DNA of 64,000 bases from NCBI GenBank assembly GCA_029245245.1, contig JAQWPT010000032.1, forward strand, positions 1 through 64,000, written 5' to 3'. The stretch comes from Phycisphaerales bacterium. Its GTDB lineage: Bacteria > Planctomycetota > Phycisphaerae > Phycisphaerales > SM1A02. The notes below the pieces were generated by a model. The model was not told where the DNA came from. It saw only the letters and a program-made list of their open reading frames with translations, and did not search any database. A program made the position numbers and the translations under genes. Below are positions 1 to 13,835 of the stretch, one piece after another (positions within the stretch are counted from its first letter, which is position 1; every line of letters starts with the position of its first letter).

Positions 1-1194
1 CGGCTCCCCGAGGGTCTCCGGGTCAAACGGAGCCGTGAACTCAAGGCGGAACCCCTCGGGGCGAGCTCGCATGGTCCGGACAGCAAACGGCGCCGTCCCG
101 CCGAATCGAACATGTTGCAGGCCGTTGCCGCGTGAACCCAGTGACGGCCATCCTCGATCGGTCATGCCCACCACCAGCGTGGGCTCGTCCGACTCGACCC
201 AGGCCAGCCGGGTGATTCCGCAGGCGAAGCCCTCCAGGAACGGGAAGCAGGCTCCCTGCCAATGGCCGTCGACTTCTTCAAGGTCCACTCGCATGACGAT
301 CGGCGCGTACTGGTCGCCGACGAAGACCTGTCCCGCGAAGGGACCGAAGCCACCGCCCGTGGTGTCCCAGACCATCCCCGACGGAGAGCGGCCCATCTTG
401 TCGTACGGGAACCACACCGCCGGCAGTTTGAAGTGCTCGATCACCTCGCCCACCTCGGGCATGGGCATGCCGTCGGGCACGTCACCGGGATGCTTGACGC
501 TGGAAGCCTGCAAATCGCACGAGGCAATGCCATGGGGATGCCCGTGAAACTCCCCGACCTCCAGGTGGCTGAGCTTGCTCGCCCCGCACCATTCGCCCTG
601 GTTGTCGGTGTAGAAGATGTCGCCGTCGGGGCTGGACTCGATCCCCGCCGGCGATCGCAGGCCGGCACTCGCTCCGTCCATGACACCCTCGGGCGTGATG
701 CGCACCGCCCAGCCTCGCCAGTTCGCGTTTCCAAACGGCTCCTCGCCAAAGGGCTTGTTCAGGGTGACCCAGAAGTCGCCATTGGCATCGCGCCGAGGGC
801 CGAACGCGTACTCGTGGTAGTTGCCGCTGATTTCCCAGTCATCACAGACCGTCTCAAGCAGGTCGATGCGATCGTCTCCATCGACATCCCGCAGTCGACT
901 GAGTTCTCCCCGCTGCACCGTGTAGATCCAGTCGTCGACCACGAGCAGTCCAAGTGGTTCATGCAGTCCATCAAGGGCGAGCGTGAATACCGGGGCGTCC
1001 CCGAAGGCATCACGCACGATCCAGAGTTCGCCACGGCGGGTGCAGACTGCGAGCGTGTCGCTGTCGATGGAGGCGATTCCTCCGACCTCGAGCACCGCGG
1101 CCTCCGGGACGACGACATCCTCGATGATCCAGCCCTGGTCAGGCGCCGCGGCGGATGCCTGGCAGAGCACGAATGAGATCAGCAGTTCCTGCAT
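1..1194 (-). CDS. Sorbosone/glucose dehydrogenase-like beta-propeller protein, exported (C-terminus cut by window)
   Basis: The reading frame is open for 398 codons from an ATG at 1194 to the window edge, so the C-terminus is missing. The N-terminus (MQELLISFVLCQASAAAP) looks like a signal peptide. The body has propeller-like strands with SPAGIESSPDGDIFYTDNQG and a later MGRSPSGMVWDTTGGGFGPF segment, as in the PVC-group proteins related to L-sorbosone dehydrogenase. The start codon overlaps the stop of the upstream cytochrome-like gene by one base (TGATG), so the two are probably translationally coupled and work together in the periplasm, perhaps as a dehydrogenase with its electron acceptor (inference). 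The substrate cannot be told from the sequence. Confidence 0.75.
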   Translation of the reverse strand, partial: MQELLISFVLCQASAAAPDQGWIIEDVVVPEAAVLEVGGIASIDSDTLAVCTRRGELWIVRDAFGDAPVFTLALDGLHEPLGLLVVDDWIYTVQRGELSRLRDVDGDDRIDLLETVCDDWEISGNYHEYAFGPRRDANGDFWVTLNKPFGEEPFGNANWRGWAVRITPEGVMDGASAGLRSPAGIESSPDGDIFYTDNQGEWCGASKLSHLEVGEFHGHPHGIASCDLQASSVKHPGDVPDGMPMPEVGEVIEHFKLPAVWFPYDKMGRSPSGMVWDTTGGGFGPFAGQVFVGDQYAPIVMRVDLEEVDGHWQGACFPFLEGFACGITRLAWVESDEPTLVVGMTDRGWPSLGSRGNGLQHVRFGGTAPFAVRTMRARPEGFRLEFTAPFDPETLGEP

Positions 1195-3866
1195 CACCAC
1201 GCCACCTCCACCTTCACCGTTCCAGTCCAGTGTCCCGAACCGTCTCCCGCCTGCCGAAGCCGGATTGGGACAAGCAACTCCTGCATGCCGTCGATGGATC
1301 GAACCATCCCGTCGCCTTCGAGCACCGTGATTTCGAGGTCATCGTCGATCATGAAGCGACCGTCTCCCTGCTCGATGATGCGGCCACCAACCGCTGCCCG
1401 CAGGTGGACTCCCCCGATGAACCGGGGCACCGTCACCTCGAATCCGCGCCGAATGCTGCTGCCCCCCTCGCTCAGGAAAGCCTCGGCATGCTCGGCGATC
1501 TCAAGTGCTCCCTGCCTGGTGATGAAGTACGGCCGTCGTGCTGCATCGCGGCGAATTCCAGCCCCCTCACCGTCGACCAGGGGCCATGGCGCATCGTCCG
1601 AGGAGAGCACCGTGACGGCAGGACCCGGCGGCAGTTCCACGATGTCGGTGCCACCAGGTGACTGGACGGCTCCAGCCCGCTGGTGCCAGGTGCCGCGTGC
1701 ATCCATGAAATCCCCACGCCACAGGATCGCCATGCGATCATTCGTCCCATCCCATGCCACGTGAGCACGCTGCGGGAACCCCACTGCGATGGTGCGTGGA
1801 CCAACGCCCTCCATGAAGGTCCCGAAGAGCACGGGCTCCTCGACCGCGGCGAGGTCATAGGACCCGGGGTCGAGTTCCACCCCGGCGGGGATCGGCATGG
1901 AGGGGCCAAGCGACAGGTAGTTCCAGATCGCATCGACCTGCTGCGTCGGATCTCCATCCAGCACGTCGGGGAAGATCGCGTGCTCGGACGCGAAGAAGGC
2001 CGGCATTCGTGTCCCCGGCCGCATGCCCGGTGGATCAAGCAGCCAGGATCGGAACCAGCCCGGGCGGATGCGATCCGCGGTATCGATGAGATCGACTCCC
2101 GGTTCGCCGAGGCTCTCGTTGCCGTCGAAGGAATGGCACTCGATGCACTTGAATCCGTCGATGCCAACCAACTGGTGACCAATGGCGGCATGTTCCACGG
2201 AGAATGCCGGCGACCGATCATCGCCGGGCACCGCATCGGCTGCATGGAACAGGCCCGGCATCGATTCAACGGCCGCTCCGAAGAAGGGCATGCGTGCGTT
2301 CATGTACGGCCGGGCTCGTGCGCCATCAAAGACGCTCCGGATCCACGACTCGTGCAGCTTGTTGCCCACTCCCGTGAGGTCGGGGGGGATCCTGGCTTCA
2401 TCACCGAGTTCGACGTCGCTGGTGAAGAGCGGGTTCAGTGCCGGCGATGGTCCACCGACACCATCGCGGGCATGGCAGGCGTAGCAGTCGAGGTTGAGCA
2501 TCGCGTGGTCCACCGCGACGGCGGCCGGCAACGGCTCCTGAAGCGATGCCCGGGCAGTCACCACCGAGTCAAGAGCCGTGCGCTGGACCGCATCGAACCC
2601 GTAGTCGGGCAGGCCGACCTGCACGGACGGGGCCAGGCAACCTCGTCCCGGGGTCAACTCGTCCAAGGGCGTCGCTCCGGCGGGAATGCCCGGCACGTGG
2701 CAGGCTGCGCAGCCGAGTTTCACGAAGGCACGCTCTCCCCGGGTGACCGCTGAAGGGTTGAGCTGCATGTTGCCCCGTGGCGGGGTGTACACCGCCGACT
2801 GGGAACTGAACGCACCAGGTGGAACGATTTCATGTTCGTCATCGTTCGGCCCCTTCCATTCCAGTTCAAGCTCCTCGTCCCATCCCAACTCGAAGTGGAC
2901 GACCTGGATCGAGTGACGACCGGCTACGAGTTCGAGCACCGCCTCCTTCGTCGTAACCGGATGCACCGCGCCGTTGTCGATGACCATCTCCCCATCAATC
3001 CAGAGCCAGGAGCCATCATCAGATGACAGCAGGAAGGACCATGTCCCGGCCTCGGGAATCTCGATCGAGCCGCTCATCCGAAGCGCGAACATGTCCCGGC
3101 CGTCGAATTCATCCGCGGTCACCTCGTCGGTGACGAAGATGTCAACCGGCTCGAACTCCGACAGGTCCCCCCGCCTGATCTCCCGGTCGATCTCATAGAC
3201 CTCCGTGAGCAGCCCCGGCTCCTCAGTCAACGTATCCAGGTCGGTCTGCTCCCGCAGCAGCCAGGCCGCCAGTGCATGAGCCTCCGCGGGATCCAGGTCC
3301 ATGGAAGGCATGCGCCCCGATGGATGCACGGCCACGGGATCCAGCAGGAAGGCCTCCAACTCGTCCATGGATGTCTGTCCGGCCAGGCGAGTTGCGTCGT
3401 CGTGCTCGTGGCACGCAAAGCAGCCGATGGTTTCCCAGATCCGCCGTCCGTGCTCGGGAATGCTCGGCATCACCTGTGCCTGTTCGGCCTGGAATGGACC
3501 GCCGAGAGACTGCAAATACTGCACGAGATCGTCAGCGAGACCGGCCTGCTCCGCTTCACCAAGTCCGTGCAGGAGCGACGGCATGTCGTGACGTCCCCGG
3601 GTCGAGACGGGCTCGAGAATGAACGTCCGCATCGCGGCGGGGCTCATGCGGGCCCCGACATCATTCAGCAGTGGAGCCTGCAGCATTCCGATCCGGGCAT
3701 GCACGCCCGCAGTGGCTCGGTGGCAGGCAAGACAGTTGGAAGTCGCCACGAGATGTTCACCAAGTCGATCCCGCTGCGCAGATCCGTCATCGCTTCCACC
3801 GCGATCGCAGCCAGAACATGCCAGCAGAATCAGTACCCATGGAAGGCAGGCACGAAAAGGCTTCAC
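1194..3866 (-). CDS. Multi-CxxCH (cytochrome c-like) lipoprotein with an internal PA14 domain
   Basis: About 890 aa from a GTG start that overlaps the stop of the upstream protease gene (GTGA). An ATG-free extension of 23 codons upstream is possible but unlikely, because the GTG gives a clean lipoprotein signal (MKPFRACLPWVLILLAC, with Cys17 or Cys20 as the lipid site). There are five CxxCH haem-attachment motifs: CLACH (45-49), CFACH (149-153), then CAACH, CYACH and CIECH in the second half. Between the second and third motifs lies a PA14-like beta domain (about 220-345) with SFLLSSDDGSWLWIDGEMVI. PA14 usually binds carbohydrate and c-type haem domains carry electrons, so a surface or periplasmic redox protein that touches a polysaccharide is plausible. 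The C-terminal 250 residues are not recognised. Confidence 0.85.
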   Translation of the reverse strand: MKPFRACLPWVLILLACSGCDRGGSDDGSAQRDRLGEHLVATSNCLACHRATAGVHARIGMLQAPLLNDVGARMSPAAMRTFILEPVSTRGRHDMPSLLHGLGEAEQAGLADDLVQYLQSLGGPFQAEQAQVMPSIPEHGRRIWETIGCFACHEHDDATRLAGQTSMDELEAFLLDPVAVHPSGRMPSMDLDPAEAHALAAWLLREQTDLDTLTEEPGLLTEVYEIDREIRRGDLSEFEPVDIFVTDEVTADEFDGRDMFALRMSGSIEIPEAGTWSFLLSSDDGSWLWIDGEMVIDNGAVHPVTTKEAVLELVAGRHSIQVVHFELGWDEELELEWKGPNDDEHEIVPPGAFSSQSAVYTPPRGNMQLNPSAVTRGERAFVKLGCAACHVPGIPAGATPLDELTPGRGCLAPSVQVGLPDYGFDAVQRTALDSVVTARASLQEPLPAAVAVDHAMLNLDCYACHARDGVGGPSPALNPLFTSDVELGDEARIPPDLTGVGNKLHESWIRSVFDGARARPYMNARMPFFGAAVESMPGLFHAADAVPGDDRSPAFSVEHAAIGHQLVGIDGFKCIECHSFDGNESLGEPGVDLIDTADRIRPGWFRSWLLDPPGMRPGTRMPAFFASEHAIFPDVLDGDPTQQVDAIWNYLSLGPSMPIPAGVELDPGSYDLAAVEEPVLFGTFMEGVGPRTIAVGFPQRAHVAWDGTNDRMAILWRGDFMDARGTWHQRAGAVQSPGGTDIVELPPGPAVTVLSSDDAPWPLVDGEGAGIRRDAARRPYFITRQGALEIAEHAEAFLSEGGSSIRRGFEVTVPRFIGGVHLRAAVGGRIIEQGDGRFMIDDDLEITVLEGDGMVRSIDGMQELLVPIRLRQAGDGSGHWTGTVKVEVAW

Positions 3867-6800
3867 AGCGGCGGGTACTCCCCGGGGAATGCCAGGAGCA
3901 TGGCCCGGCGCTGCCCCTCGGCCAGGTGATTCCACTCCAACGCCTCGAGCAGTTCCAATCGAATGTCATGGAGTTCCCGTTCACGAGGATGCTTCTTCAG
4001 CCGGGCATCGACGAGCTCCAACGCCGTAGCCAGACGCTGCTCCATCCGCGCTCGACCAAGCTCAAGCTTCCATCCGCCCTCCTCGTCCGCGGGATCGCTC
4101 CATTCGTCCAGCTCGTTCCAGGTGGCATTGAACGCATCGGTCGCCTCGGGGGCATCCCCTGCTTCCGCCATTTCCAACTGCACACGCCCCCGGGCCATCA
4201 GGGCCGCGACCAGGTGCTCATGAGCCTCCTTCATCCGCTGGACCTCGTCCTCATCAACCTCCTCGCCATCGTGCTCACGCCCCCGCCAGGCCGCGAGCTC
4301 CTCGAGGTCGATGGCCTCGATGATCGCATCGGCTGCGGCCAGCATGGCCCGGCGATGATCATCGTCTTCAAGCGTCTCGTCCTGTTCGGTCCAGGTCAGT
4401 CTCGCGGCCAGGACGTCCATGTCGGCGGGATCCTCACTCAGTCGTGATCGCACCAGCGCCTCGAACTCTGGCCGCTCCGTTTCATGATCGAACAGCAGAA
4501 GGTGGCGAACCTGCACATCGGCCATCGCCTCCTCCATGTCATCCCGTGTCGAGGATTCGTCTTCCTCTTCATCCTTCGATCCGGGCTTCTTCGTCGGCAC
4601 CGCCGACTCCGCGATGGTCATGGCCAGCGGCCATCCATCCGGGTTCTCCCCGGCACCGACCGTGTCGGATGACCCCGAACCAAACGACATGGTTCCAACC
4701 AGCAGGTCGCCCGGTTCGCCAGCCTTGTTCTGTGAAGCCACCGATGGTGCCGCGATGTACAGCGGAGCAGATTCTCCGTGTCGCAGAATGCGATCGGCGT
4801 ACGTGCCGGAACCGGTCATGACCTGGTCGGGATGTGACCGGATCTTCAGGGAGATCGACGAAGACAACCTTCGATCCAGGCACAGTGGAAGATCCTCAAG
4901 TCGCTCCAGTTCGGACGACTCGTCATGGCGTACGTGGAACAGCACGGTGTACGTGCCCTTGCTGAGCTTGTGGAAGTCGTCGTCCACGGTCGCAAGCACC
5001 AGTTTCTTGGCGTCATCGAAGACGAGGATCATGGTCGATTCGTAGTCCCGGGAGTACTCGAGCCCCTGCTCCCACAGACGGACCGACGCGTCCTTTTTCA
5101 GCGTGAACTCGTAGGTCGACACCAGTTCATGAATGAGCCGGCCCTCGGGCAGTTCGTCCCGATCACGTGACAGCGGCTCGATGCGTCGGTCGGTGGACTG
5201 CAGCCAGCTCCGCACGAACGTGAAGGAACCCGAGGGGTCGAGTTCCTCCGGGCCCAGCGGGGCCCGGACATCCATGGTGGTGAACAACCGGTTGCCATCG
5301 AGCACGATCGGATCAGCCTCCGGAACCAGGCCGTGTGCGCTCACCGTGACATCCACCTCCCCTTCCTCAAGGCTCGACCAGTACTGGGCAATGGCCAGTT
5401 CCATGGTGCGCCCCCCGATGGCGGGAATGCTCACCAGGGCCCGATCATCATCCTCGAACCGGACGTACTTGCGCACGTTTGAATCGCTGTAGGCTCTCCC
5501 GTCTTCCAACTGGGTTGCATGCACGACCAGGGTCCGCTTCGTCGAGGCGTCCTGCCGCTGCATCTGCACATCGACCCACGTCGTCCCCTGCGGAAGATCC
5601 AGGTACCAGCGACGGATCTCGCCAGGCGCAAAGACCACGCGTTCCTCCATCGTCCAGTCATTTTCCTGTTCCAGGTGCACGGGACGAAGCACTGTCACGG
5701 GAAGCCGTGCGATCGGCCCGGCATTGGATTCGGATGCATCGAAGATCAGGACCTCAGCGAAATGGTTTCCTGGCTCGAGTCCCGTCGGATCCACCCGGAC
5801 GTCGAACCGCTTGCCTCCATGCACGAGCAGCATGGTCTGCGGGACATCGATCCAGTCGGCTGTGGACTCGAATCGCAGCGACAGCTCGTACTCGGCCTGC
5901 CGACGACGATCCGCATCCCGCGGAAAGATCGGAGAAATCGTGACGGGCACGGTCGCGACCTGGTTGTTCTCCCAGGACTCGCGGAGGTAGATGCCCCGAC
6001 CCGCGTGTCTGCCGGAAGTCCTGACGGACAATCGCACATCGGCATCATCCCGATCTCCATGAGCTGCAAGCCAATCCCAGGCCGCCGGTACGTCGATGAG
6101 CCCGGCCCCGAGACTGAACCGGTCCATTCCCGGCACCGGCCGCGCGGTGTTCATGATGGCTCGGCGAATCAAGTGCGGCGTCCAGGTACGCCCCTCTTCC
6201 TTGAGGCCACTGCACAGCAAGGCCAGCGAGCCGCAGACATTTGGAGACGACATCGATGTGCCGTTCTTGAGCGAATGACGCTTGAGCGTCCAGACGGGCA
6301 TGGGTGACACCGCGCCCCCGGGCCCGCTGATGTCGACGCCCAGATCGCCATCTGAGGCCGGCCCTCGGCTCGACCAGGTGTAGTGCAGCGAGTCGTAGGG
6401 CTCGCGGAATGAATACTGGTCGCGCATCATCTCGGGTGTCAGCATCGCCCCGACGCCGATCACCTCGGTGGTCGTCCCGCCCGGGGTTCCAACCGTCGTC
6501 AGGTTCGGGCCGGAGTTGCCGGCACTGGCCACGAAGATGACCCCATGCTCGTTGACGATGTCACGGTAGAGGTTGATGATCCGGCCGTGGTTCGGAAATC
6601 CGGTTGACCCACCGTAGGACATGTTGATCAGGTCGCACCGGTTGCGAAGCACCGCGATGAGTCCACGGACCTCGCCGGTCCCCAGCGAGGTGGATCCGAG
6701 GCGGGAGTCGCCGATCTTGACCGAGACGATTCCCGCTCCAGGCGCAATGCCATCGAGCTCAGGCTGTCCCGGGAAGTGGGCCGCCACCGTGCCCGCGACA

Positions 6801-7705
6801 TGGGTCCCGTGAGATCCGGAATCGACGACGATGGACAGCACGTCACCTTCCTCGTACACGTTGATGCCGTAGTTCATCAGGTCGGTGGTGCCGAAGGTGC
6901 TCCAATGGTGGTGGATCCGGTAGTCCTCAAGCAGGACTTCATCCGACAGATCACCGTCCTCGTCGCGATCGATGACTCCACGCCAATGCTCTCCATCGTG
7001 GAAGACGATGCAGTCGTAGACCGGACCCGGATCGTCATACCCCTCCGCAAGTTCGCGAAGGTGCTCCAGGCGGGCTTCGAGTTCCTCCCGCTCCCGTCGC
7101 TCGTCATCCGTTTCTTCTTCGTGGTCACGACGAAACGCCTCCAACTTCGTAGCAGCGTCTGCTTCAAGGGCACGTTGCTTGATGTCGAACTCCTTGCGAC
7201 GCTCCTTCTTCATCCTCGAGACGAGGTCGCCGGGAAAGAGGTCCCATGCCGACTTGATGCCGACGCGCCACTGTCCATCGGTGTTCGTCCAGTCCGTCGG
7301 CAGGTGAAGCGTTCGCCCCGTCAGTCCCTCGATGGTGCCTTCTTCCGACGCCTCCCGAACCGTCGACGTATCCACGTCCCCACTTCCGGTGCCGTCAACG
7401 AGATCCACGATCTTGGTGTGCCCTTCCGTGGTCACCTGGAGCCCCGGGGCCCCGGGGTCGACTCCCTGGTCGAAGATGGCCACCACGATCCCGCGGCCAT
7501 CGGCATCTGGCCGCGAAGACAGGAACTCCGCGGCACCTGTCTCGATCTTGGGCTGGTACTCGCGCAACACCGGCTCCGTGGATGCAGCAGATGCCGCAGC
7601 AGGCGGGGTGGTCGCCGGCGCCGGCATGGCGGCGCGGCCGGGAGTGGTCGGTGACGAGGAACATCCTGCAAGGATGAACACAAGGACAATCGGGGATCGG
7701 CGCAT
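3863..7705 (-). CDS. Subtilisin-family peptidase resembling tripeptidyl-peptidase II, predicted lipoprotein
   Basis: About 1280 aa. The start at 7705 has GGAG upstream and gives a lipoprotein signal MRRSPIVLVFILAGC (lipid Cys15). The S8 catalytic set is visible: Asp79 in IFDQGVDPGAPGLQVTTEG, His299 in GSHGTHVAG, oxyanion Asn397 in SAGNSGPN and Ser484 in NGTSMSSPN. The FDQGVDPGAPG and DGTGSGDVDTST segments, the insert of about 220 residues between Asp and His (including a charged helical stretch near 165-222) and the total length are those of tripeptidyl-peptidase II rather than of ordinary subtilisins. Eukaryotic TPPII is cytosolic and removes tripeptides; here the signal predicts an envelope location. 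It lies 72 bases downstream of an amino-acid permease and overlaps the next gene by four bases. Confidence 0.9.
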   Translation of the reverse strand: MRRSPIVLVFILAGCSSSPTTPGRAAMPAPATTPPAAASAASTEPVLREYQPKIETGAAEFLSSRPDADGRGIVVAIFDQGVDPGAPGLQVTTEGHTKIVDLVDGTGSGDVDTSTVREASEEGTIEGLTGRTLHLPTDWTNTDGQWRVGIKSAWDLFPGDLVSRMKKERRKEFDIKQRALEADAATKLEAFRRDHEEETDDERREREELEARLEHLRELAEGYDDPGPVYDCIVFHDGEHWRGVIDRDEDGDLSDEVLLEDYRIHHHWSTFGTTDLMNYGINVYEEGDVLSIVVDSGSHGTHVAGTVAAHFPGQPELDGIAPGAGIVSVKIGDSRLGSTSLGTGEVRGLIAVLRNRCDLINMSYGGSTGFPNHGRIINLYRDIVNEHGVIFVASAGNSGPNLTTVGTPGGTTTEVIGVGAMLTPEMMRDQYSFREPYDSLHYTWSSRGPASDGDLGVDISGPGGAVSPMPVWTLKRHSLKNGTSMSSPNVCGSLALLCSGLKEEGRTWTPHLIRRAIMNTARPVPGMDRFSLGAGLIDVPAAWDWLAAHGDRDDADVRLSVRTSGRHAGRGIYLRESWENNQVATVPVTISPIFPRDADRRRQAEYELSLRFESTADWIDVPQTMLLVHGGKRFDVRVDPTGLEPGNHFAEVLIFDASESNAGPIARLPVTVLRPVHLEQENDWTMEERVVFAPGEIRRWYLDLPQGTTWVDVQMQRQDASTKRTLVVHATQLEDGRAYSDSNVRKYVRFEDDDRALVSIPAIGGRTMELAIAQYWSSLEEGEVDVTVSAHGLVPEADPIVLDGNRLFTTMDVRAPLGPEELDPSGSFTFVRSWLQSTDRRIEPLSRDRDELPEGRLIHELVSTYEFTLKKDASVRLWEQGLEYSRDYESTMILVFDDAKKLVLATVDDDFHKLSKGTYTVLFHVRHDESSELERLEDLPLCLDRRLSSSISLKIRSHPDQVMTGSGTYADRILRHGESAPLYIAAPSVASQNKAGEPGDLLVGTMSFGSGSSDTVGAGENPDGWPLAMTIAESAVPTKKPGSKDEEEDESSTRDDMEEAMADVQVRHLLLFDHETERPEFEALVRSRLSEDPADMDVLAARLTWTEQDETLEDDDHRRAMLAAADAIIEAIDLEELAAWRGREHDGEEVDEDEVQRMKEAHEHLVAALMARGRVQLEMAEAGDAPEATDAFNATWNELDEWSDPADEEGGWKLELGRARMEQRLATALELVDARLKKHPRERELHDIRLELLEALEWNHLAEGQRRAMLLAFPGEYPPL

Positions 7706-7777
7706 GATGGCTCCATTCTCGGGATCAGGAGCCCGCATGGTAGCACTGCACGGAGGATATGGCGGACGGCCAGGAGT

Positions 7778-9229
7778 TCAGGAATCGATTGGGGGCGTGT
7801 GGCTGACGTCCTCGAACTCCTCACTCTTCCAGTCTGGTTTTCGAAGCGCATAGACCACGAATGGAACGAGCAGGGCAACGATGAAGAAGGTAATGGTCAA
7901 GCACACGAACCAGACTGGATCCATCGGCATGTTGGCGTCATCCGGTGGAGTGAAGAGGATGAAGATCCCCGCCGTTCCCACGAAAGCGCCGGTACCGGCC
8001 ACGAGCCACATGCCCGGCAAGCCCCCGGGAATCTTGAACGGACGTTCGACATTCGGCCGCGTGTAGCGGAGCACGATCGCCGAGACGAACATCAGCACGT
8101 ACATCACCAGGTACAACTGTGCGGACAGAACGGTGGCGATGTAGAAGACACTGTTCATGTCGACGAAGGCGTAGAGCAGGCACAGCAGGGTCACGATGGC
8201 CGCCTGGAGCAGCAGCAGGTTGCGAGGCACCTTGGCACGATTGACCTTCTGAAATGCCGGGGGGATGACCCCGTCTTCGGCGGCATAGCGAAGCGTCTCC
8301 ACCGGGCCGATGATCCACACGATCATGTGTCCCACCATGCCCAGCAGGACACAGAACCCAAGCAGTGGAATCCACCCGGTGAGACCGTAGAAGCTGAGGA
8401 AGTGATGAAACACCTCCAGCGGCCCGGCAGCCATCGACTCATGTTCCCTGGGAACGAGGATCGCCACCGACAGCGCCCCCAGGATCGATACTCCCAGCAC
8501 GAGAATCATCGAGACGAAGAGGGACAGCGGAATGGTGCGATTGGGGTGCTTGACGCGACGGAAATGCACACCATTGACCTCGAGTCCGGACAGAAACGAG
8601 AACAGGGTCATGGCGATGGCGACCTTGCCCCAGCTCGACAGATCGGGAATGAACGTCTCGGGCTCGAATGACATCTGGGACGGCTGTCCATCGTACAGCC
8701 ACCATGCTGCAAACAGAATGGCGAGCAGGGTTGGAATGAAGGTGCCGACCCAGAGACACAGTGATGTGATGAGGCCACTGAGCTTGATGCCGAACAGGTT
8801 CAACAGCGTCGAGCCCCAGAAGATGCCGATCACCGCGGGAACGGTGTACAACTTCTTGTCTCCCAGATCCGGAGCGAAGACGTCGGCCGCCGCCAGGGCG
8901 CAGACCGCCAGCACGCTGGGGTACCACACGACGATCTGGATCCACTGCATCCAACTGGCCACGAAGGCCCAGCGAATGCCAAGGGCCTCCTTCACCCAGG
9001 CGTAGACACCCCCTTCGCGCGGAAATCCAACTCCGAGTTCCGCGGCGACGAATCCAACGGGAATGAAGTAGACCAGGCCGAAGAAGAGGTACCAGGTCAC
9101 CAGCGCCAGGCCGAACCCGGCCATGGTCGGGAAGCCCTCGAGCCCGACGACCAGCGCCGTGTTCATCATGGCGAGCATGAAGAGCGACAGCACCCGGCGA
9201 GGATCCTGATTGGAGTGTGATGCACTCAC
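7778..9229 (-). CDS. APC-superfamily amino acid permease
   Basis: About 483 aa with roughly twelve hydrophobic segments. The first helix contains LVVGLEGFPTMAGFG and is followed by FPREGGVYAWVKEALG, the usual helix 1-2 region of amino acid/polyamine/organocation carriers. A GTG at 9229 is the chosen start because further upstream in-frame starts run into the divergent FMN-reductase gene; no good ribosome site is seen, so this start is uncertain. The gene lies just upstream of the TPPII-like protease on the same strand, which fits uptake of amino acids released by peptide breakdown (inference). The substrate is not predictable. Confidence 0.85.
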   Translation of the reverse strand: MSASHSNQDPRRVLSLFMLAMMNTALVVGLEGFPTMAGFGLALVTWYLFFGLVYFIPVGFVAAELGVGFPREGGVYAWVKEALGIRWAFVASWMQWIQIVVWYPSVLAVCALAAADVFAPDLGDKKLYTVPAVIGIFWGSTLLNLFGIKLSGLITSLCLWVGTFIPTLLAILFAAWWLYDGQPSQMSFEPETFIPDLSSWGKVAIAMTLFSFLSGLEVNGVHFRRVKHPNRTIPLSLFVSMILVLGVSILGALSVAILVPREHESMAAGPLEVFHHFLSFYGLTGWIPLLGFCVLLGMVGHMIVWIIGPVETLRYAAEDGVIPPAFQKVNRAKVPRNLLLLQAAIVTLLCLLYAFVDMNSVFYIATVLSAQLYLVMYVLMFVSAIVLRYTRPNVERPFKIPGGLPGMWLVAGTGAFVGTAGIFILFTPPDDANMPMDPVWFVCLTITFFIVALLVPFVVYALRKPDWKSEEFEDVSHTPPIDS

Positions 9230-9296
9230 GGGGCAGACGGTACACGACACAGCTGGTTCGTGCAGCCTGCCCCGATCTTCGCTAGGCTGCGACGAC

Positions 9297-9890
9297 ATGG
9301 CATCAAACGTGAGCATCCTCGCCTTCAGTGGCAGCCTCAGAACTGACTCTTGGAATCACCGGGTCGTGGAAATTGCCGCCGCCGCCGCACGTGATGCCGG
9401 CGCCGAGGTCACCATCCTGCGACTTCGCGACCATCCCCTGCCCCTCTACGACGGAGGCCTCGAGCAGGAAAGTGGCCTCCCCCCGCAGGCGGTGGAACTG
9501 AAAGGGCTCTTCCGCGAACACGACGGCTTCCTCATCGCCTCCCCCGAGTACAACGGTTCCTACAGCGGGGCCCTGAAGAACACTGTGGACTGGCTCACCC
9601 GACCGCAGGAAGGCTACCCGGGCCTGGACTGCTTCCAGGGAAAGGTCGCGGGACTGCTGTCCTGCTCCCCCGGTCGCCTTGGCGGCATCCGAGGACTGCC
9701 CCACCTGCGGCAACTGCTCTCGGGAATCGGAACGATGGTGCTTGCCCGCCAGATCGCCATACCCCTCATCACGGATGAACTGGGCGAGACCACGACGCTC
9801 CGCACCGAAGCGATGCAGCAGGGAGTGGAACGGCTCGGCCGGGAACTGGTCGAGGTCATCACCGCCATGAAGTCCTCGTCATCCTCCTGA
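9297..9890 (+). CDS. NADPH-dependent FMN reductase family flavoprotein
   Basis: About 197 aa with a flavodoxin-like fold. The FMN phosphate-binding loop FSGSLRTDSWNHRV is near the N-terminus, and the flavin-contacting segment SPEYNGSYSGALKNTVDWL follows at mid-length. Proteins of this family (YieF/ChrR/azoreductase-like) reduce quinones, azo dyes or chromate with NAD(P)H in the cytoplasm; the real substrate is unknown. The ATG at 9297 was chosen over an upstream ATG because the family begins just before this loop. The last 12 bases overlap the convergent sufE-like gene. Confidence 0.9.
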   Translation: MASNVSILAFSGSLRTDSWNHRVVEIAAAAARDAGAEVTILRLRDHPLPLYDGGLEQESGLPPQAVELKGLFREHDGFLIASPEYNGSYSGALKNTVDWLTRPQEGYPGLDCFQGKVAGLLSCSPGRLGGIRGLPHLRQLLSGIGTMVLARQIAIPLITDELGETTTLRTEAMQQGVERLGRELVEVITAMKSSSSS

Positions 9891-11339: not shown

Positions 11340-13787
11340 TCAGTCGCCCCAGTGGGCGATGACCGTCAGCAGGTCTTCCACCGTGTAGGGGTTGCCCCAG
11401 TTCGCGATGACCATCAGCAGGTCCTCGACGTTTACAGAGCCGTCACCATTGATGTCGCCAGGCTGCTCGTTGTCATTGCAGTAGGCCTCGGTGATGGTGA
11501 TGGCATCAACACCAGCCTCGACGATGGATCCCTCATTGAGATCCGATGCCGTGAAACGCAGTCGAAAGGCGGCCGTGTCTTCGAAGCCCTCGACGGCCGC
11601 GAGATCAAACGTTGCCTCCATCCACCCGCCGTCAATGCCGTTGCCCGTGGGGCCGACGACTTCCAGCGTAGCCCAACTCGATCCTCCATCGATGCTGAAC
11701 TCGACCACGAAGATGTCGTTGGCGGGATCAGCACCGCCGCAGTTGGACCCGCTGTTGTACCAACGCTGGTAGGTAAGGGTACTGCCGGTGCTGGCGATCA
11801 TGTTCGGCGAGGTGAGGATGGTGCTGCCATCGTCGATGTCCTCCTCGCTCGTACCGTTGCCGGTGACGTAGCACTGGCCAGACCCATCTGCATCGCTTGC
11901 GGGCTCGCACCGCAATCCGCTCCAGAGCGGGGCCGCCTTCTCCCACTGGCCGGTGAGGGCATCCCCTTCGACCGTCCACCCCAGGGCGACCTCGAAGTCC
12001 TCCTCGAGCAGCAGATCGATGCCCGACCAGGCGTCGGCCGAGTAGACGCTGTCGGGAGCCGAGAAGGGACTCGTGGCGTAGTCGCCGTCGATCGTCTCGA
12101 CACTGAGGTACCACTCGATGGGTGCTCCGCACTCGAAGGCGGGGAAGATGACCTCATAGACACCACCAATGATGTGACTCACCGGGTATTCCTGCCAGAG
12201 TTGTCCCGGGTTGCGGACATGCAGCGTTGCAGTATCTGGATTCGCCGTCGCATTTCCAGCGATCGAAACTCGAAGCGTCTGTCCACCGGTCGGCTCGATG
12301 AGCGCCGGGCGTCCATCGGGATAGTTGAAGATCAACGAAACGGTCGAGAGCGCCGCCTGCAGCGACTCCCAGGCATCGATCATGCCCCAGCCGTAGTCGT
12401 TGTCCTTGCCGGATGTTCCCAGGTCGTAGGCCGTGTCGTAGATGATCTGCTTGATGACGTCCGGCGGCAGGTTGGGATTGGCCTGGCACATGATCGCGAC
12501 AACGCCGTTGACGTGCGGCGATGCCATCGAGGTGCCGCTGAGTGATGCATAGCCGCCTCCCGGGTACGCCGAATGCGTATTGACACCAGGAGCACTGATG
12601 TCCGGCTTGATTGCTGCAGAGCCATCGAGCGTGCAGTAGGTCGGGCCTCGCGATGAGAAACTGGCGACGGGCCAACTCGACGAATACGGATCGATCGCCG
12701 CCACGGCGCAGATCCGGTACTCGTCGGTCGCGCGGTCACCGGGTCGGCGCAGGCCGGAAGACCCCTCGTTGCCGGCCGAGAAGAGCACCACGGTGCCGAG
12801 CAGTTCACAGTTGTCGATGTAGCTCCAGAAGGTCTGGTCACATTCAGGGTACCCGTGGCTGCTGACGAGCCCCCAGGAGTTGGAACACACGTGGGGCACA
12901 TCCCATGACGTCGCGGGGTCACCATCCGGGTCGGTCATCCATTGGAAGGCCTCGATGGCATCGGCAACGGTCTGAGCAATGCCCTCACGATCGATGGGAG
13001 CGGAAGCAATCCACTGGGCTCCTGGGGCCACCCCCACGATCTGGCCCGGCGCGCCGCCGGCGATCGTTCCCATGGTGTGTGTCCCGTGGCCGTTGTAGTC
13101 GTACGGGGGGAACTGGTTGAGATAAGGATCATGCCAAGCCCACTCCTGGGCGTAGCCGGGCTCGTTGCCTCGCCATCGACTGGCAAGACAGGGATGGCTT
13201 CCGTCGACACCCGTGTCGATGTTGGCGACGATCGTTCCCTGCCCGTCGTAGCCGGCATCCCAGCATTCATCGGCACGCACCGCGATCACCCCGGGCTCGG
13301 CCACGGCACCACGAGCACCTCCCACCGGTTTCGAATCGGGCTCGACCGGAGCCACGAGTTCGATCGGATGATCCAGGTACATCATCATGACATCGTCACG
13401 CTGAGACAGCAGGCCAATCGCCTCGACCGAGGCGTCGACCTGCACCAGGTTGGCGATCCAGAACGAACGGTGCCCGGCGACCTCTCCCGAGGTCTCCAGC
13501 TGTTCGATCGCGGCCAGCAGTTCCAACTGGGAATGCTCGGCCATGCCCTGGAGAAGCTCCATGCCGATCTGGTGACGATGGGCACGTGTGGCCCGCTCGG
13601 CCTTGAACTGGTCGTTCAACGCGTCATAGTCGAGTTGATCATGGAGGTAGAGAAGAGCCTTGACATGTTCACCCGGAGCCGCAGCCTTCATGGCCGCTTC
13701 CAGGTTTGAATCAATCTCGGCTGCGCCGAATGCGGCTGCCGGCAAGGCGGCAAGAAGCAACATCGCGGTTGCATTTCGAACTGTCAT
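11340..13787 (-). CDS. Secreted subtilisin-family serine protease with dockerin-like C-terminus
   Basis: About 815 aa from an ATG at 13787 preceded by GAGG; a TTG at 13796 is an alternative. A signal peptide (MTVRNATAMLLLAALPAAAFGA) is followed by an inhibitor-like prodomain (about 25-150). The catalytic residues are Asp191 (IDTGVDGSHP), His234 (GHGTHTMG), Asn340 (SAGNEG) and Ser420 (SGTSMASPH). After residue 500 come beta-rich domains, including one with LTYQRWYNSGSNC typical of secreted-protease jelly-roll modules. The last 40 residues are DINGDGSVNVEDLL followed by a second helix repeat that lacks the calcium loop (NPYTVEDLLTVIAHWG). It should act outside the cytoplasm; the tail probably attaches it somewhere. 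Confidence 0.92.
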   Translation of the reverse strand: MTVRNATAMLLLAALPAAAFGAAEIDSNLEAAMKAAAPGEHVKALLYLHDQLDYDALNDQFKAERATRAHRHQIGMELLQGMAEHSQLELLAAIEQLETSGEVAGHRSFWIANLVQVDASVEAIGLLSQRDDVMMMYLDHPIELVAPVEPDSKPVGGARGAVAEPGVIAVRADECWDAGYDGQGTIVANIDTGVDGSHPCLASRWRGNEPGYAQEWAWHDPYLNQFPPYDYNGHGTHTMGTIAGGAPGQIVGVAPGAQWIASAPIDREGIAQTVADAIEAFQWMTDPDGDPATSWDVPHVCSNSWGLVSSHGYPECDQTFWSYIDNCELLGTVVLFSAGNEGSSGLRRPGDRATDEYRICAVAAIDPYSSSWPVASFSSRGPTYCTLDGSAAIKPDISAPGVNTHSAYPGGGYASLSGTSMASPHVNGVVAIMCQANPNLPPDVIKQIIYDTAYDLGTSGKDNDYGWGMIDAWESLQAALSTVSLIFNYPDGRPALIEPTGGQTLRVSIAGNATANPDTATLHVRNPGQLWQEYPVSHIIGGVYEVIFPAFECGAPIEWYLSVETIDGDYATSPFSAPDSVYSADAWSGIDLLLEEDFEVALGWTVEGDALTGQWEKAAPLWSGLRCEPASDADGSGQCYVTGNGTSEEDIDDGSTILTSPNMIASTGSTLTYQRWYNSGSNCGGADPANDIFVVEFSIDGGSSWATLEVVGPTGNGIDGGWMEATFDLAAVEGFEDTAAFRLRFTASDLNEGSIVEAGVDAITITEAYCNDNEQPGDINGDGSVNVEDLLMVIANWGNPYTVEDLLTVIAHWGD

Positions 13788-13835
13788 GTTTCGCAATCCT
13801 CATCTTGGGTTGAAGTAGGCGGTATTCGGCAGCAC

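Follow-up and report, generated by a model that had tools for sequence, protein, structure and literature searches.

The gene at positions 3863..7705 (minus strand) of the window, which here means the whole analysed stretch of 64,000 nucleotides from contig JAQWPT010000032.1 of a Phycisphaerales bacterium, codes for a serine protease built on the complete scaffold of tripeptidyl-peptidase II (TPPII). The protein is homologous to TPPII, has its domain set, catalytic triad and modelled fold, carries a signal peptide with lipobox, and has Ser and Gly at the two sites of the TPPII glutamate pair. The reading preferred here, with about an even chance of being right, is an exported, lipid-anchored protease of a Glu-less type that would cut its substrates without measuring a free N-terminus. 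Two results go beyond the preliminary description of this DNA, namely the predicted export across the bacterial family and the division of that family according to the Glu pair, which had been missed.

The reading frame begins with ATG at 7705 and gives 1280 aa and a stop codon, the length expected beforehand; a further in-frame ATG is at 7738. All features of the protease given below are on the minus strand. Four Pfam domains, all above the Pfam cut-offs, follow one another in the order Peptidase_S8 (6104..7498, residues 70-534), TPPII_Ig-like-1 (5690..6034, residues 558-672), the galactose-binding-like domain TPPII_GBD (5369..5632, residues 692-779), and TPPII (PF12580; 4733..5260, residues 816-991, E 5.2e-37). 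A C-terminal helical region (4016..4549, about residues 1053-1230) was located by the structure model and by a profile match to Drosophila TPPII (3lxu). Alignment with 3lxu placed the catalytic residues at Asp79 (7469..7471), His299 (6809..6811), and Ser484 (6254..6256). The spacing between Asp79 and His299 is 220 residues, and the long TPPII-type insert between them (6812..7468) forms two long helices in the model. The window protein matched 3lxu in phmmer with E 5.5e-165, the best stretch being residues 51-999. A profile built from 17 sequences, among them that of the window, matched it with E 1.1e-283 and gave a second, C-terminal match to 3lxu 1184-1351 (i-Evalue 2e-13). These 17 rows (alignment A1) were taken from 21 proteins of genomes of the phylum, with the fragment L034 and also L032, L040, and L041 omitted; the oxyanion-loop motif SAGN is invariant in them. 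The TPPII-type motifs and the large Asp-His insert of the preliminary description are thus borne out by the Pfam domain set, the near end-to-end match to 3lxu and the spacing. One PF12580 match is present in the window's own genome (96% complete). Scanning for promoters and terminators gave nothing above chance.

The AlphaFold model of residues 48-1231, computed from 25 of 81 rows (window and 80 loci; alignment A2), has pLDDT of 83.2 and pTM of 0.75. Foldseek aligned the model to 3lxu with E 1.2e-80 and TM-scores of 0.77/0.75. In VIA the match to 3lxu had Z 48.8 over 1097 residues with rmsd of 5.9, and model residues 3-1184 corresponded to chain residues 18-1307; the next matches were other subtilases with Z of 36 or less. 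The fold of the TPPII protomer was therefore recovered in the model over the whole chain, including the C-terminal helices. As the 3lxu match, the Foldseek result, and the tree of the S8 domain agree, the protease is placed with TPPII and apart from ordinary subtilisins. Human Gly252 is important for assembly of the TPPII spindle. The residue aligned to it is Gly in 78 of 82 compared rows and Asn in one (three were unreadable), and this kept glycine is the one pointer, a hint at most, toward possible spindle formation.

In eukaryotic TPPII, two glutamates hold the free N-terminus of the substrate and so enable tripeptidyl exopeptidase action. These are Glu305 and Glu331 of the human enzyme and correspond to residues 312 and 343 of the Drosophila chain. 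The window protease has neither, as Ser340 (6686..6688) aligned with chain residue 312 and Gly366 (6608..6610) with chain residue 343. Because this pair is absent, TPPII chemistry should not be assumed, and since a defining feature of TPPII is thereby missing, the protein is better named TPPII-scaffold protease, Glu-less type, than tripeptidyl-peptidase. The two sites were compared in 82 rows, consisting of Drosophila, the window, and 80 loci kept of 224 matching stretches; the remaining 144 stretches may include ordinary subtilases, as one search pattern fits subtilases generally. Ser/Gly was found in 46 rows, Glu/Glu in 32 (Drosophila included), and Ser/Glu in two, while two were unreadable. 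A second comparison of 20 rows overlapping these, made of the window and genomes of its phylum and again without the fragment L034, gave 16 Ser/Gly and four Glu/Glu. The catalytic triad is kept in every readable row of the 82. The two Ser/Glu proteins, L104 and L072, are both from Phycisphaerae and could represent a half-way or reverted state. The bacterial types have a median identity of 45.9% to each other (range 36–54%), and Drosophila has a median identity of 36.5% to the Glu/Glu rows and 35.5% to the remaining rows. A single PF12580 match was found in each of 21 matching genomes of the surveys of relatives and of the phylum, and in each of five further genomes (one apparently already counted), which suggests that the two types stand in for one another and do not act together.

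It is possible, if somewhat unlikely, that the window protease is an ordinary tripeptidyl exopeptidase located in the envelope, in which other residues replace the Glu pair in gripping the N-terminus of the substrate. The whole TPPII scaffold retained in the Foldseek and VIA comparisons would fit such an enzyme. Moreover, Streptomyces tripeptidyl peptidase S, an S8 enzyme outside TPPII, is reported in PMC9549277 to release tripeptides, so the absence of the Glu pair need not abolish this activity. Many proteins of the Ser/Gly type have an acidic residue five positions past the first site (GTGE). However, Asp, Ala, Thr, Ser, Lys, and Gln also occur at the place of this Glu, which was rejected as a fixed substitute. 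Besides the two Glu sites, where the separation is perfect by construction because the types were defined by these columns, none of the columns with residues in 24 or more Glu/Glu and 36 or more Ser/Gly rows tells the types apart at 85% in each, which argues against any fixed compensating residue. Cutting without the measurement of a free N-terminus remains the preferred reading.

In trees of full-length proteins from which the motif columns had been taken out, the Glu/Glu rows formed one side of a branch with support of 99 in the tree of 74 rows and 100 in the tree of 52 rows under a mixture model. The larger tree omits the fragmentary L056, L105, L110, L113, L115, L117, L118, and L119, and the smaller one a further 22 rows, which were near-copies picked by eye. 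Both Ser/Glu rows nest within the Ser/Gly side of the 74-row tree. Drosophila, the only sequence representing eukaryotes, joined the bacterial Glu/Glu rows with support of 99 and 100, respectively. Its placement on the Ser/Gly side was not rejected by the AU test (p 0.675), the tree with this placement being 6.8 log units better, and descent of eukaryotic TPPII from the bacterial Glu/Glu proteins is for this reason not claimed. In the tree of the S8 domain, computed from far fewer columns, the types were not cleanly split (five changes each, weak supports). Its outgroup comprised subtilisin BPN' together with a pair of subtilases from the same genome; L066, L076, and L095 were also omitted, and the outgroup candidates L124 and L125 were unused. 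Outgroup branches in this tree reach a length of 10 and the deep forks have supports of 28–90. BPN' stands apart from the TPPII group with support of 90, and the root falls weakly among the Glu/Glu rows; Ser/Gly is on this ground perhaps the derived state, and no direction is claimed.

The family is patchily spread. PF12580 matches were found in five of 61 genomes of relatives and in 17 of the 392 genomes surveyed in the phylum, the genome of the window being counted in both, and no internal stops were present in the matches of these two surveys. On the Verrucomicrobiota side, one of 288 genomes was over the cut-off, which was the centre of that survey itself, and there was one more weak match. 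The 80 listed loci belong to Planctomycetota (54) and Verrucomicrobiota (22), and four are unassigned. Among the listed matches, proteins of the Phycisphaerales bacteria UBA854 and UBA3160 are the nearest, with 71% identity. In locus L119 (6871-10715) the protease is read in two overlapping ORFs, which may be due to a frameshift or a sequencing error.

Such a patchy spread could also follow from a recent transfer of TPPII from eukaryotes to bacteria, with the bacterial proteins as altered copies. A 2019 paper covered two bacterial species with TPPII and proposed transfer from eukaryotes for them (PMC6713707). As an explanation of the proteins compared here it is improbable: each of the 80 listed loci, which span at least two phyla, has a match to the window protein of 1e-60 or better, the identity between the bacterial types is as low as given above, the matches are without internal stops, and export signals are found almost throughout the bacterial rows. 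For a recent transfer into two species as well, the spread and divergence of these sequences make it unlikely, and the opposite direction is unproven. No account of an exported or Glu-less bacterial TPPII was found in the open-access literature searched, outside which the main structural papers lie.

That the protein serves for scaffolding or binding and has little or no protease activity is more improbable still. The missing substrate-binding pair and the middle part of the model, which is large and mostly beta, would suit such a protein, but the triad is kept in all readable rows and SAGN is invariant in the 17 aligned sequences.

The lipoprotein signal seen in the preliminary description (LAGC; 7661..7705, with Cys15 as the predicted lipidation site) withstood closer analysis. 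The N-terminus MRRSPIVLVFILAGC is a standard lipobox signal with a basic n-region, a hydrophobic core, and Cys, and both Lgt and LspA are encoded in the genome. The N-termini of the two congeners, MRATILPILLVLAGC and MRTRFIAVTLLLTGC, have lipoboxes LAGC and LTGC at the same place, where the signals of two further members of the same family end in FCGC and AAGC. The start upstream of the lipobox was confirmed by these lipoboxes, by GGAG located five bases 5' of the ATG, and by the codon context of the congener L024 (on the same contig as L042). There, a stop precedes the ATG by only five codons, and the following possible start is a GTG 47 codons downstream, beyond the lipobox. A true start downstream of the lipobox, for example at the in-frame ATG of Met26, which would make the protein cytosolic like eukaryotic TPPII, is very improbable, because Met26 is absent from both congeners, their lipoboxes recur at the same place, GGAG precedes the first ATG, and L024 has no ATG before the mature part except that preceding the lipobox.

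Signals were surveyed with a home-made hydropathy rule in the window protein and the 80 loci, three rows being without N-terminus. Signal-like N-termini were found in 76 of the 78 rows with sequence before the mature part, three of them (L085, L087, and L114) passing only via a GTG or TTG start; the two others, L056 (unread bases) and L110, have no candidate start. As a baseline, nearly the same rule was applied to 330 other ORFs of these loci, and 129 (39%) passed. A lipobox is present in 14 of the 78 N-terminal regions, and a lipobox-like stretch, under a looser rule, in 19 of the 330 other ORFs. Most relatives therefore have an export signal without lipobox, and the lipoprotein form is found in several branches of the family. 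Export looks general in the bacterial TPPII-like family. For the window protease, the best reading of the sequence is an envelope location after lipidation, facing the periplasm or the outside, and not the cytosolic location of eukaryotic TPPII. The earlier suggestion of a lipidated envelope version as a different use of the fold agrees with the signal and lipobox; lipidation, however, is not the main difference, as nearly all bacterial relatives seem to be exported, most of them without a lipobox.

The protease gene lies between an APC-type amino-acid permease gene upstream (7778..9298, minus strand; Pfam) and a gene for a cytochrome c/PA14 protein downstream (1194..3866, minus strand), which has its own lipobox-like stretch LLACSGC. 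All three are on one strand. The protease stop and the inferred GTG start of the cytochrome c/PA14 gene overlap in GTGA, which makes co-translation of these two proteins probable. The permease context noted in the preliminary description is real here but lineage-specific. A permease is beside the protease in three of 80 listed loci (L042, L058, and L061) and the cytochrome c/PA14 protein in two (L058 and L061); the remaining loci, some with short flanks, have neither. Because these neighbours are kept in so few loci, a feeding role is plausible here and is not a family trait. No gene common to the whole family was found near the protease in the 80 loci, some of which have short flanks. Genes of two blast clusters, each with 10 loci, lie close to the protease gene, though not in a constant order; a single member of each cluster was typed, giving PSCyt1/DUF1549/DUF1553 (L068) and DUF1501 (L045). 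Loci with genes of these clusters include L045, L060, L066, L068, L075, L077, and L090. Such genes are very common in Planctomycetota and Verrucomicrobiota, hence no functional link is claimed. A second S8 subtilase is coded at 11340-13796 (minus strand); its dockerin match does not reach the Pfam cut-off, and the gene is syntenic in L042, L058, and L061.

In the preferred reading of an exported Glu-less protease, the lipidated enzyme would be an envelope protein exposed to the periplasm or to the cell exterior. With the Glu pair missing, its cleft would be open past S3, as it is in ordinary subtilisins, and proteins or long peptides could be cut internally, or at least without a count of three from a free N-terminus. 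Uptake might be fed by the products, in this genus perhaps via the co-directional amino-acid permease. A wider reading can be offered tentatively, and it has a lesser chance of being right: the Ser/Gly type would be an exported endopeptidase, TPPII an old bacterial envelope family with a two-residue switch, and the eukaryotic enzyme a relocated Glu/Glu member. Members with and without the Glu pair provide natural variants for testing the origin of exopeptidase action on the TPPII scaffold, and an apparently exported bacterial family bears on the source of eukaryotic TPPII and on the reason for its spindles.

Eukaryotic TPPII (MEROPS S08.090; Drosophila 3lxu) shares with the window protease nearly the full length, the domain set, the triad, the Asp-His insert, and the fold, and differs in having the Glu pair in place of Ser340/Gly366. 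Seven residues precede the shared part in the Drosophila chain, which leaves little room for a signal, whereas the window protease has a signal with lipobox there. According to PMC2933905, eukaryotic TPPII is cytosolic, forms a complex exceeding 5 MDa with two twisted strands, and acts downstream of the proteasome. Bacterial TPPII homologues were named SBT6 in Blastopirellula marina and Rubinisphaera brasiliensis (PMC6713707); Rubinisphaera is absent from the 80 listed loci. The homologue of B. marina DSM 3645 (L075, 7001-10705) is of the Ser/Gly type like the window protease; its signal is without lipobox, and none of the window's neighbours is within its flanks. Subtilisin BPN' and other S8 endopeptidases are alike in the fold of the catalytic domain, with Z about 34, and the match is confined to that domain. 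At the first Glu site the alignment of BPN' is gapped, and at the second it has Gly, as does the window protease.
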